The position numbers and the translations under genes are program-made. Below, piece after piece: positions 253 to 21,780 of a stretch of DNA of 21,979 nt (within the stretch, counting starts at the first letter, position 1; each line of letters begins with the position of its first letter). The DNA comes from Baffinella frigidus (lineage: Eukaryota > Cryptophyceae > Cryptomonadales > Baffinellaceae). The DNA lies in contig MU646532.1 of NCBI GenBank assembly GCA_026770585.1, forward strand, positions 454,537 through 476,515, read 5' to 3'. The notes under the pieces were generated by a model that saw only the letters and a program-made list of their open reading frames with translations, was not told where the DNA came from and did not search any database.

Positions 253-299
253 CTGATCCATCATGGACATTTCCCCCTCTGCGAAGACGAATCGCTTCC
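253..299 (-). CDS. Exon H (47 nt), last exon visible
   Basis: After acceptor GAAACAG the frame reads (G)KRFVFAEGEMSMMDQ and ends at a possible GC donor CAG|GCACGC in phase 0. It might instead run a few codons further (ARHPQT). The rest of the gene lies to the left of the window. Confidence 0.55.
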
Positions 300-3200
300 C
301 TGTTTCGGGCTTCGGGTTTAGGTTTTAAGGTTCTCCGTCGTTTGTCGGTCATTTTTTGGTTTTCTGGGCAGTTTGAAGGTTGGCTCAATCTGACATCGAT
401 ATTTCCCCCTCTGCGAAAACAAAGCGCTTTTTTATCTCGGGTTTCGGGTTTCGGGTTTCGGGTTTCGGGTTTAGGGTTTGGGGTTTAGGGTTTGGGGTTT
501 AGGGTTCAGGGTATAGGGTTTAGGGTTTAGGGTTTAGGGTTTAGGGTTTAGAGTGGGGCGTGCAGTGTAGTGTGTGTGAGGGTGCCCTTTCTGGACCCTT
601 GACCCTTCTGGATTGAGGTACAGATCAAAAGCCGTTCTGCCCAACCCATACAGCAAATTCTGGTTCTCTCTGAGTCCATTTGGGCTCAGCAGTTTGGTGC
701 GCCCGGGCTCTTTCCCACCTCAAAGTTGAGGGACGTGTACCGCACACCCAGCGTATCAACTTGAGAATAGTGTGACAGTCAACCCGCATGAGTCAAGCCC
801 GCCCGCCACATCGCGGCATTAGAGTAGTATTAAGTTGATCACTTTTCAAAAGGCTGGGGGGCCTCTCTCGAGGTCTTCTTGGTGCACACCATGTGAGGGT
901 AATAAAAAAATAAAAAAGCAACCCACGTGAGGCAGAGATAGGCGTCCAGGAGCACCCCTGGCACAAAACCGGGGCAGGTACCCCCCCCCCCCCACACACA
1001 CACACCCGTCCTTACCACCGCTCTCGCATCCCTCTCTCTCTCTCCTCCTCTCCCGCCTGTCTCTCAGCTCTTATCTCAGAAAAGGGATTTTTAAATTCGT
1101 TTTCTTAAGTCAATTCCTGTACAAATTCGTCAACTTATTCTTTTCTCTGCGCATAAGTTGACAAATCTGAAGGGGGATTGACTTAAGAAAACGAATTTGA
1201 AAATCCCTTTTCTGAGATAAGCTCTTCCTCTCCATCCCCGCACCCACCCTCGGGGCCCTAACGGGTAAAACACGAGGGTTCCGGAGATCGGGCGGTCAAA
1301 ACTCGATGGTTCAGGAGGTCGGGGGTGGGTACGAGGGTTGAGGGGGGCAGGGGGTGGTGCCTGGCAGCTTCATGAGCTCGGCTGCGATCGATCGGAACCG
1401 GTCCACGTTGCTGATTTTGGGCACCTGGTTTGGGGTTGATGGTTTGAGGTTGAGGGTTGAGGGTTGCGGGTTGAGGGTTGAGGGTTGCGGGTTTAGGGTT
1501 TAGGTTTTAGGGTTTAGGGTTTGGGGTTTAGAGTTTAGGGTTTAGGGTTTAGGGTGTATGCAGTCAGGGAGAAGGGAGCGCAGTGTGGGATGTGAGAGGG
1601 GTTTCGAGGTTGGAGGTTACATCACCTGCCATAAACTGGAGACGATTCTTCTGTGTGACGGTGCTGGCTGGAAAAAATATGCAAGAATGGCGTTCTGCCT
1701 CGGTCCTGGCTATACAACCAACCCAACTCTGGCTGGAAAAAATGCAGGCCGATTTGCAGGTGTTGAGCCGGTTTCGTGTTTCAGCGTTAAGAGTTCAGGG
1801 GGTTGGGTTCAGGGTGTGGGGGGAGGGTGGCTACCTCGTCTTTCTTGCCATTCTTGACCACAATCCCCGCCTGCGGCTTTAGGGTCTAGGGGTTAGGGTA
1901 GGGTTGAGGGTTGAGGGTTGAGGATTTAGGCTTTAGGGTTTAGAGTTAACGGTGTGGGGTGTAGGGTTTAGGGTTTAGGGTGTGGGGTTTAGGGTTCAGG
2001 GTTTAGGGTTCAGGGTTCAGGGTTCAGGGTTCAGGGAGACCTGGGTAAGGTGAGGGGGTTGTAGTCGGTCTGAGTGCGGTTTACGGTTTAGGGTAGCAAG
2101 AGGGTTCATGGTTCAGAGTAGCTAGAGGGTTGATGGTTTAGGATAGCTAGAGGGTGCTAGAGGGTGCATAGCGATTTTAGGGTTTAGGGTTTAGGGTTTA
2201 GGGTTTAGGGTTTAAGGGAGACCTGGGGGAGAGGGTTGTAGTCCGTCTGGGTGCTAGAGGGTGCATAGCGATTTTAGGGTTTAGGGTTTAGGGTTTAGGG
2301 TTTGAGGGATTAGGGTTTAAGGGAGACCTGTGGGAGGGGGTTGTAGTCCGTCTGGGTGCGGAGCAGCACGATCCAATATCTGGTGTTGGGTTTAGGGTTT
2401 AGGGGTTAGGATTTAGGGTGTAGGGTCTAGGGTTTAGGGTTTGGGGTTTAGGGTTTGGGGTTTGGGGTTGAGGGTTTGGGGTTTAGGGTTTAGGGTTTGG
2501 GGTTTGGGGTGTGGGGTTTAGGGATTGGGGTTGAGGGTTTGGGGTTAAGGTTTTCGGGCCTAGGGTTTAATGTTTAGGGTTTAGGGTTTAGGGTTTAGGG
2601 TTCAGGTTTCAGGGCTTAGGGTTTAGGGTGTAGGGTTTAGGCTTTAGGGTGTAGGGTTTAGGGTTTAGTGTGGGGGGTTCAGGTTTTAGGACGTAGGGTT
2701 TAGGGTTTAGTGTTTAGGGTTTAGGGTTTAGGGTGTGGGGTTGTACTTGATGGTGTGCGGAAGGTGCTTGAAAAACACCGTCGGATCCACTTCGTACGTA
2801 AGCGGCGTTAAGTCAACCTGCGGAAGTTGCCGGGGGCGTTAAGTTGTCAGTGGTGTTAAGTCAACCTGCGAAAGATGTCCGTGTGGTTGACTTTCGGGGC
2901 TGGGGGGACGTGGGGGCAGGTGCCAGGGTACCATCGAGGGTTCAGGATTGAGGGTTCAGGGTTTTAGTGTTCAGTGTAGTGTTTCAAACACTATCTGAGA
3001 CTTTACAAACACTTGACCTAGTGGCACGGTGATTCCACGAATACGTCGTGTTCATCCGGGAACAAGTATTTTTCTTTTAAAAAATCCGCACGAAGATTAC
3101 TACACAATTGCTTCGGACGTGACCTGTTGTGTAGTAATTTTCATTGCCAGCTTCTAAAAGAAAAACACGTGTTCCCGGATCAGGATGGCACACGGCGTTG

Positions 3201-4870
3201 AGATCTGTGCAACCCTACAACCTACACCTGAAACATGAAAAAGAAACACTGGGTTATGCACAGGTTATGAACCTTGGCCTTAGAGCGCTGTGCAGAGAAG
3301 TTGGCCACCGACAAACGGGGAAATGGGGAAATTGGAGCCATTTTGTGCCCTTTTGAGAAATTCATGGTACTGAATTTCTCAAAAGTTGACAAAATGGCTC
3401 CAATTTCTCGATTTCCCATTATTTCCCGTGGCCAACTTCTCTGCGCAGCGAAACACTGGGCCATGCACTGGTTATGAACCTTGGCCTTTCACGAGCCGCG
3501 GTTGGTGGTGTTCAGGGCTCAGGGCGTAGGGTTATGGGTGTAGGATTCTGGGGTTAGCACAGGTTACGGACCTTAGCCTACCACAAAGTGCGGCTCGTGT
3601 GGTTAGGGTTCACGGCTCAGGGCTTCGGGTGTAAGGTTGAGGGTGTGTTCAACCTTGGCCTTCCGCGAGCCGCGGTTGGTGGTGTTCTTCTGCCCGTTGG
3701 GCTTCACCAGCGTACCGCTCACCCTCGTGCCAGCCCCACCGGCAGGCTAGTTACCCCCAGAGAGGGACAGAGAGAGAGAGAAAGAGAGAGAGAGACAGAG
3801 AGAGACAGAGAGACAGAGAGACAGAGAGAGAGAGAGAGAGGAGGGGTGGGAGAGAGAGAGGAGGGGTGGGAGAGAGAGGAGGGGTGTGAGAGAGAGAGAG
3901 AGGAGAGAAAGAAACGCTACACTGGCGTGTACACAGGTTATGGACCTTGGCCTTCCACGAGCCGCGATTGGTGGTGTTCTTCTGCCCGTCGGGCTTCACT
4001 AGCGTCCCGCTCACCGGCATCAGCGGGCTCTCTCTCTCCCGCGCACCATCAAGGGTTGACGCCCTGCACCCTACCCCCTCAACCCTACCCCCTACACCCT
4101 ACACCCTCAACCCTACACCCTCAACCATACGCCCTGAACCCTACACCCTGTACCCTACAGGTAGGGTTGAGGGTTAAGTCAGGGTGCAGGTTGTGAACCT
4201 TGGCCTTCCATGAGCCGCGGTTGGTGGTGTTCAGGGCTCAGGGGTCAGGGGTCAGGATGTAGGATTCTGGGGGTATACACAGGTTACGAACCTTAGCCTA
4301 CCACAAAGTGCGGCTCGTGTGGTTAGGGTTCACGGCTAAGGGTTTCGGGAGTAAGGTTGAGGGTGTGTTCAACCTTGGCCTTCCATGAGCCGCGGTTGGT
4401 GGTGTTCTTCTGCCCGTCGGGCTTCACCAGCGTCCCGCTCACCGGCATCAGCGGGCTCTCCGAATTCAGCACCTTTGGGGGTTGAAGGGTTAGGGGTTGG
4501 GGTTCATCATCGAAAAATCCTTGTTTCTTCACCGGCATCAGGTTGCTCTCCGAATTCAGCATCTTTCGGGTTGAGGGGTGAGGGTTCAGCATCGAGAAAT
4601 CCTTGAATGCGCGTGGGGTTCCTTCTCCGGCATCAGCCACACAGCGGGCTACGAAGGGGTTTTCGGGCTCTGGGAGCCCGAGTTTCCGTGACCTTATCGG
4701 TAGGAACCCCCCTATGCCCCTACGGATTGCCTACCGTAGGGTCCTAGGTCTTATCGCTTAAGGGTCATTCGAAATCCCTTCGAAGTCCGCTGTGTGGGGA
4801 GGGTGTCATGAATAACGGGGGGTGTCTCTCATGGGACATCGAATGGCGTGACCCGGATGGGTTCTTGCTG

Positions 4871-21699: not shown

Positions 21700-21748
21700 G
21701 TACCGCCCATCAAATGAAATAACGTCCCCCCCTCCCCCCTGGGCCTGG

Positions 21749-21780
21749 CCAGATGGTACCTCCCCTCAACTGAAATAACT
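21749..21780 (+). pseudogene. Exon 10 3' shard
   Basis: CCAGATG|GTACCTCCCCTCAA with CTGAAATAAC repeats the exon 10 end and intron start (21692-21723) about 57 bp downstream. Confidence 0.72.

Follow-up and report, generated by a model that had tools for sequence, protein, structure and literature searches.

Intron growth is usually ascribed to transposons and simple repeats, and local exon copies in the same orientation are familiar from the tandem duplication of whole exons, as in mutually exclusive exons. Introns are known to be gained through tandem genomic duplication, in which new ones arise from exonic AGGT (PMC3443670), and introners, which are dispersed, intron-creating transposable elements, are described as a cause of rapid intron change in diverse eukaryotes, including unicellular ones (PMC9860276). 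Besides, small tandem duplications are an established repair product of fill-in at DNA breaks by CST / Pol alpha-primase (PMC8355091). Here we describe partial copies of exons, termed shards, which lie in the introns beside their own exons in two genes of the cold-water cryptophyte Baffinella frigidus, an ACADSB gene (short/branched-chain acyl-CoA dehydrogenase) and a C2-like gene. Both are contained in a stretch of 21,979 nucleotides (assembly GCA_026770585.1, contig MU646532.1, positions 454,537 to 476,515 of the forward strand), the whole of which is called the window below. The published genome of Baffinella sp. CCMP2293 measures 534.5 Mb, 6.1 times that of Guillardia, according to its main text (PMC9756366).

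Each exon of the window was aligned to its own adjacent introns in both orientations, and introns shuffled by dinucleotide served as the control. At a score of at least 26, the 17 exons of the two genes yielded 25 sense and no antisense partial copies, against 0.275 expected from the shuffles; at least 24 gave 28 sense and 1 antisense (0.65 expected), and at least 22 gave 36 sense and 2 antisense (2.3 expected). The copies at 26 and above, sorted by hand and counted as reaching an exon end when within 6 bases of it, were polar: 7 of the 12 upstream copies include the 5' end of the exon and none its 3' end, whereas 12 of the 13 downstream copies include the 3' end, with the 5' end present in no case. 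Six of the 25 are internal, touching neither end, and none is a copy of a whole exon. A preliminary description of this DNA had claimed polar shards in two unrelated genes, more than 25 in number; the polarity is borne out by these counts, and the number was about right. The copies are displayed directly by a self-comparison of the window. When the whole window was scanned, all matches scoring at least 30 were on the same strand and in the adjacent intron, and three matches at 26 to 27, one of them antisense, lay elsewhere.

Copies can carry a splice site and intron sequence along with the exon. The acceptor AG is retained in 6 of 7 5' shards and the donor GT in 10 of 11 3' shards of the window, and homology continues into the intron beyond the splice site for 51 bases at exon C, 14 at exon 10 and 36 to 60 at exon B (60 being the limit of the query). 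In exon C of the C2-like gene, a unit of 85 bp, made up of 51 bases of the intron 3' end and 34 exon bases, is directly repeated in tandem, with 5 bases between the two units (4523 to 4529). Such unbroken units running from intron into exon were seen for exons C, 10 and B, and not for every shard.

The same geometry was found outside the window in 50 exon segments of kinesin, TCP-1 and kinase genes, around which 600 bp was searched on each side. Within that distance, one or more shards accompany twenty segments, which are spread over 15 contigs; the matches comprise 58 in sense and 4 in antisense. Upstream, 23 fragments touch the 5' end of the matched segment, none the 3' end, and 16 are internal; downstream, 15 touch the 3' end, none the 5' end, and 4 are internal. 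No copy among the 58 reaches both ends. Judged by where the centre of a fragment falls (the centre rule), 55 of the 58 fragments are polar, as are 28 of the 29 exon-sides (p = 5.6e-8, assuming independent sides, some exons sharing a gene). The polarity that had been predicted for other introns against a control is thus present on both sides, at 23 to 0 and 15 to 0. The outside copies diverge from their exons by a median of 12.5%.

The segments were drawn from family searches that returned 64 exon-level matches for kinesin, 14 for TCP-1 and 145 for kinase, and were taken in three lots: 21 first (12 kinesin and 9 TCP-1), 21 second (kinesin and TCP-1) and 8 kinase. The first 42 were picked by hand before looking at copies, short matches first and under no single strict rule, rows such as the C942 exons and long matches being skipped; in the case of two C123 segments and one C506 segment, shards had already been seen at other exons of the gene. 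The kinase lot consists of the first six loci of matches of at most 210 bp, one per contig, by E-value, together with two further matches in those loci. One segment (C23:405798), whose hidden Markov model (HMM) match spans an intron, is in the polarity counts and out of the codon counts. Four loci (L030-L033), chosen for overlapping HMM matches and excluded from the 50, are polar on visual inspection; a kinesin P-loop exon, as one example, is preceded by three 5' halves and followed by one 3' half. No two of the TCP-1 matches overlapped strongly within a single gene, yet some TCP-1 exons have shards by the 600-bp alignment, and shards are therefore mostly too short for a screen based on HMM overlap. 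Taken as a whole, the results refer to three protein families and to hand-picked segments in part of the genome of one strain, and the splicing status of the copies is predicted from the DNA.

We consider it highly probable that these introns grew through recurrent tandem duplications on a local scale, in which one breakpoint lay in an exon and the other in an intron, and that the broken copy then decayed. The preliminary description had proposed serial tandem duplication with this placement of breaks, and the polarity outside the window supports it. Local tandem duplications would recur, and their ends could land within short exons. Where one end falls in an exon, the whole exon would be kept on the outer side and a half-exon added to the intron, namely a 5' half with the acceptor in the upstream case and a 3' half with the donor in the downstream case. 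Copies of whole exons with both splice sites would presumably be purged by selection, because they would be spliced in, whereas half-exons lacking one splice site would presumably be ignored by splicing and would then decay and be duplicated again within the intron. The duplicating step itself may be end joining with fill-in at breaks; we infer that repair of this kind may act in Baffinella. The duplicated units measure about 85 to several hundred bp.

Since polarity is expected from any direct tandem duplication with one exonic break, polarity alone is no discovery. What is surprising is the frequency of the shards and the missing whole copies: with freely placed ends, units of about 200 bp and exons of about 100 bp, we estimate that roughly one third of the duplications would copy a whole exon, versus 0 of 58 and 0 of 25 found. 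Half-exon duplication may contribute to intron and genome size. More tentatively, and with somewhat more doubt than confidence, we suggest that serial half-exon duplication is a main route of intron growth in this lineage, with exon recognition as the filter, and that together with CCCTAAA-like arrays it could explain a large share of a genome six times the size of Guillardia's. In that case, every intron would preserve a succession of fossils of the exons beside it.

Many of the shards arose by renewed duplication of earlier shards. States common to the shards but unlike the exon, junction bases included, number 19 upstream and 11 downstream of ACADSB exon 5 and 10 at exon 6. The upstream shards of exon 5, four of six of which begin at exon base 1 and all of which end by base 75, fall by eye into two groups, each with its own junctions, and a larger unit (15167-15335 versus 16036-16204, 82%) spans one shard and part of the next copy. 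These groups and the larger unit indicate that the duplications were nested and serial, so that there were fewer exon-breaking events than shards. The earlier proposal that the shards record serial exon-breaking events is accordingly right about their serial nature, whereas the arrays at exons 5 and 6, whose shards share states and junctions, grew by re-duplication. The possibility that 5' and 3' shards of an exon have a common breakpoint was also considered, as several pairs appeared coincident by eye, and was rejected after re-pairing across 12 exons (p = 0.36).

The differences between exons and shards were counted by codon position, for which a constrained exon and a free shard lead one to expect about 1:1:2. 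The window gave 28/353, 28/355 and 66/360 for positions 1, 2 and 3, a 2.3-fold excess at position 3 that fits a constrained exon and a free shard, and the outside sample gave 49/776, 54/780 and 165/766. Given ratios of 2.3 in the window and 3.3 outside, the third-position excess alone was rejected as proof of neutral shards. Where position 3 of the exon is A or T, the shard differs at 46 of 101 bases, which suggests that many changes took place on the exon's side. The shards of the window show 122 substitutions versus 1 gap opening, the scarcity of gaps being partly a property of local alignment, and those outside show 21 gap openings. Gapped shards were excluded from the resampling of stop codons and from the tallies of CpG, third positions and splice sites.

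Several observations weigh against the proposed duplication. No shard was present within 600 bp of 30 of the 50 outside segments, and 20 of the 58 fragments are internal. A fragment of this sample counts as reaching an end if it comes to within 6 bases of either limit of the HMM match, which is not a proven splice site. Three of the 58 violate the centre rule: an internal fragment upstream of C941:57617 (bases 44-78 of 105), which makes up the one opposing exon-side, and two upstream fragments of C441:266864, which end well short of the 3' end. The outside excess at position 3 is 3.3-fold versus about 2 expected, and CpG sites do not account for it. A telomere-like motif stands at 13 of 25 broken ends in the window (p = 6e-4), at junctions set by hand that are not identical to the 25 matches scoring at least 26; as a general rule it was rejected, for it is not enriched outside (13 of 58, p = 0.17). 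Besides, selection against copies of whole exons is deduced solely from the absence of such copies. The earlier suggestion of a genome-wide process is borne out for three protein families within the readable portion of a single assembly, with most segments shard-free at the distance searched.

Among the alternatives, the one that survives best is that the shards are functional, with lone acceptors upstream and lone donors downstream that selection maintains because they contribute to exon definition or act as alternative or decoy splice sites. The retention of AG and GT noted above is in keeping with this, as is the outside excess at position 3, which exceeds a simple neutral-shard model, and there was no stop among 62 nonsynonymous shard codons outside the window. 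However, when the window was added and one random shard was drawn per exon, about 1.2 of 39 nonsynonymous codons were stops, against 4.2% expected, and the majority of segments do without a shard. In ACADSB, moreover, the intact exon carries the residue commoner among 59 relatives at 40 of 43 amino acid differences, with 3 opposite (one exon-10 fragment, 10-35, was left out), so that it is the shard that departs from the common state. We therefore regard function as unlikely.

The shards might instead date from the birth of the introns themselves through the tandem duplication of exonic AGGT (PMC3443670), a route that by our reasoning would leave copies of the next exon's 5' end and of the previous exon's 3' end in the new intron and hence predicts the same polarity. 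But the shards of exons 10, B and C bear 14 to 60 bp of intron on the splice-site side, so the intron predates the duplication, and several shards per exon form arrays. Intron birth is thus disfavoured for exons 10, B and C, and it could hold for single shards directly beside a splice site; as a general account we consider it very improbable. It is hardly credible that the copies are exon pieces which were transposed or inserted, as could happen through element capture. The introns do hold many inverted repeats of the miniature inverted-repeat transposable element (MITE) type, one family occurring at six places in the window, but the copies are on the sense strand beside their own exon, and insertion predicts no polarity; the polarity observed argues that dispersed insertion was not the main source. 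A DNA search with 201 bp around exon 5, the one exon so searched, found 6 places, all within ACADSB and none dispersed, in the searched part of the assembly. An artefact from mis-joined or collapsed repeats or merged haplotypes is just as hard to credit, since, although the assembly analysed (382 Mb, 1,364 contigs) differs from the published one (534.5 Mb, 10,880 scaffolds; PMC9756366), the copies diverge from their exons, in the window mostly by substitutions, and the shard-bearing segments on 15 contigs share one geometry.

Tandem duplication with one exonic and one intronic break thus remains our preferred explanation, and the features of the window are given in Table 1. The copies that the preliminary description had placed upstream of exons 5, 10, B and C and downstream of exons 5, 6, C and E are all clear at a score of at least 26. 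The copy upstream of exon 4 is equally clear but lacks the 5' end; that of exon D is borderline; and exon H has two 5' copies with no intact H within the window. Downstream, exon B is followed by weak 3' pieces, its main piece being internal, the copy of exon 9 attains its score solely when the intron flank is included, and those of exons 7 and 10 are short and were seen by eye only, the alignments returning just the intron self-match.

TABLE 1 Genes, exons, partial exon copies and other repeats in the window
Feature	Position(s)	Strand	Remarks
ACADSB (short/branched-chain acyl-CoA dehydrogenase), 10 exons	12238..21699	+	GT-AG junctions, single frame
ACADSB exons 1-5	12238-12528, 12715-12814, 13600-13651, 14738-14803, 16134-16266	+	
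ACADSB exons 6-10	17326-17382, 18505-18581, 18950-19019, 19936-19983, 21631-21699	+	
Exon 4, internal shard (bases 17-42 of 66), upstream intron	14555..14580	+	Score 47
Exon 5, six shards, upstream intron	15175..16088; starts 15175, 15265, 15478, 15716, 15831, 16014	+	Scores 34-85
Exon 5, three 3' shards with donor side, downstream intron	16564..16967	+	Bases 71-133, 87-133, 86-133; scores 51-76
Exon 6, three 3' shards, downstream intron	17572..17946	+	Bases 16-57, 16-57, 38-57; scores 30-69
Exon 9, 3' shard (last 14 exon bases and intron start), downstream intron	20059..20095	+	Score 44, intron flank included
Exon 10, 5' shard (bases 1-59), upstream intron	21459..21517	+	Score 88; 14 bp intron homology
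C2-like gene, 7 mapped exons A-G	1371..8717	-	
C2-like exons A-D	8421-8717, 7164-7244, 4374-4472, 2747-2817	-	
C2-like exons E-G	2328-2379, 1835-1870, 1371-1424	-	Exon G 3' end uncertain
Exon B, three 5' shards with intron 3' end, upstream intron	7814-7900, 7686-7756, 7336-7411	-	Scores 51-62 with flank
Exon B, internal piece (bases 20-56 of 81), downstream intron	6802-6838	-	Score 39
Exon B, weak 3' pieces, downstream intron	6584-6612, 6421-6444	-	Scores 24-28 (28 and 28 with flank)
Exon C, 5' shards, upstream intron (4529..5780)	4529-4561, 5575-5592	-	Score at least 26
Exon C, weaker 5' shards, upstream intron	4624, 4969, 5712, 5767	-	
Exon C, tandem unit	4439-4523 / 4529-4605	-	85 bp, 80% identity
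Exon C, four 3' shards, downstream intron	3946-4032, 3654-3723, 4199-4232, 3480-3513	-	Scores 58-159
Exon D, borderline 5' shard, upstream intron	2846-2865	-	Score 25
Exon E, two 3' shards, downstream intron	2223-2254, 2052-2079	-	Scores 54 and 46
Exon H start, two 5' copies	253-278, 391-410	-	71-bp direct repeat at 79%; intact H not in window
MITE-like family, introns of both genes	4636-4828, 6166-6267, 13927-14089, 16374-16493, 19530-19693, 21142-21331		Both orientations, 80-93% identity
Other intronic/intergenic hairpins	1070-1221, 3054-3180, 3286-3450, 5876-5979, 8132-8177, 11078-11203, 11456-11576, 11946-12048, 17095-17138, 17996-18199		70-100% self-complementary
Intergenic repeat family	10477-10975		Inverted copy in ACADSB intron 8 (19027-19192), up to 93% identity

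The window has a GC content of 53.9%, the same figure as is published for Baffinella sp. CCMP2293 (PMC9756366). The joined ACADSB exons form an open frame of 321 amino acids; across 77% of its length, this protein shares 99% identity with a Baffinella frigidus acyl-CoA dehydrogenase (P0002), and it matches human ACADSB (2jif) with an E value of 2.5e-79. In the public model P0002, a segment after GAQM that is present in relatives such as P0004 is apparently missing at residues 249-250, and there are extra valines at two junctions; both are perhaps errors of the gene model. Exon A of the C2-like gene resembles P0124 and exons B-G resemble P0122/P0123 (JGI proteins on short contigs; 71-73% identity). 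The C2 label of this minus-strand gene comes from a weak Pfam match (E value of 0.093) under the Pfam cut-off. Exon B has an apparent GC donor (AAG|GCGAGT, 7156-7163), and the residues of the homologue fit the boundary. A PDB search with ACADSB exon 5 (46 amino acids) returned no match, nor did Pfam searches with that exon and with one frame of the C2-like gene.

Other repeats lie around the exons. Heptamers in the CCCTAAA register occur 495 times in sense versus 25 in antisense in the introns of the two genes, and once in the intergenic stretch. Across 43 loci elsewhere (whole loci L030-L072), CCCTAAA-like heptamers number 1421 in sense versus 64 in antisense, and 30 of the 32 loci with at least 3 heptamers have a sense majority, with the C-rich strand as the sense strand (p = 2.5e-7, genes on either strand). 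The C-rich form in sense resembles a branch-point and pyrimidine context, and the opposite form (TTTAG|G) would offer acceptor-like sites. Selection against the latter form is possibly behind the strand bias. Hairpins and an intergenic repeat family accompany the MITE-like family (Table 1), a 23-base piece of which had no exact match in viral contigs.

The occurrence of partial self-copies within 600 bp of 20 of 50 segments, on the predicted side for 28 of 29 exon-sides, points to a possible further source of intron growth. Besides, the contrast between surviving halves and missing whole copies amounts to a natural experiment on what splicing tolerates, and, should the shards preserve earlier states of the exon, duplications could be dated and exon changes rooted by using them as internal fossils. 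No report of such halos of half-exons was found in the literature searched (open-licence texts); the word "intron" is absent from the main text of the genome paper (PMC9756366), and the main text of the introner paper (PMC9860276) contains no match to Baffinella, crypto or Guillardia. As far as that literature goes, the kind of process is known; what is new is how densely it occurs, that it is confined to half-exons and that it may have a share in intron growth.

The closest described systems each share part of this picture. Intron gain from exonic AGGT is, like the formation of the Baffinella shards, an intragenic tandem duplication that involves coding sequence and results in copies of exons inside an intron; however, it creates an intron from an exon, whereas the shards would lengthen existing introns through one exonic and one intronic break. 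Fill-in duplications, as described in the repair study, are likewise short, direct and beside the break, with a geometry that would leave one intact and one partial exon, but they arose at induced breaks in human and mouse cells, whereas the Baffinella copies are an accumulated evolutionary record known from sequence. Introners, as their main text presents them, are dispersed families inserting into genes, in contrast to the shards, which are local exon pieces and, for exon 5, not dispersed. Finally, mutually exclusive exons keep the whole exon and both splice sites, whereas not one of the 58 outside and 25 window shards is whole.

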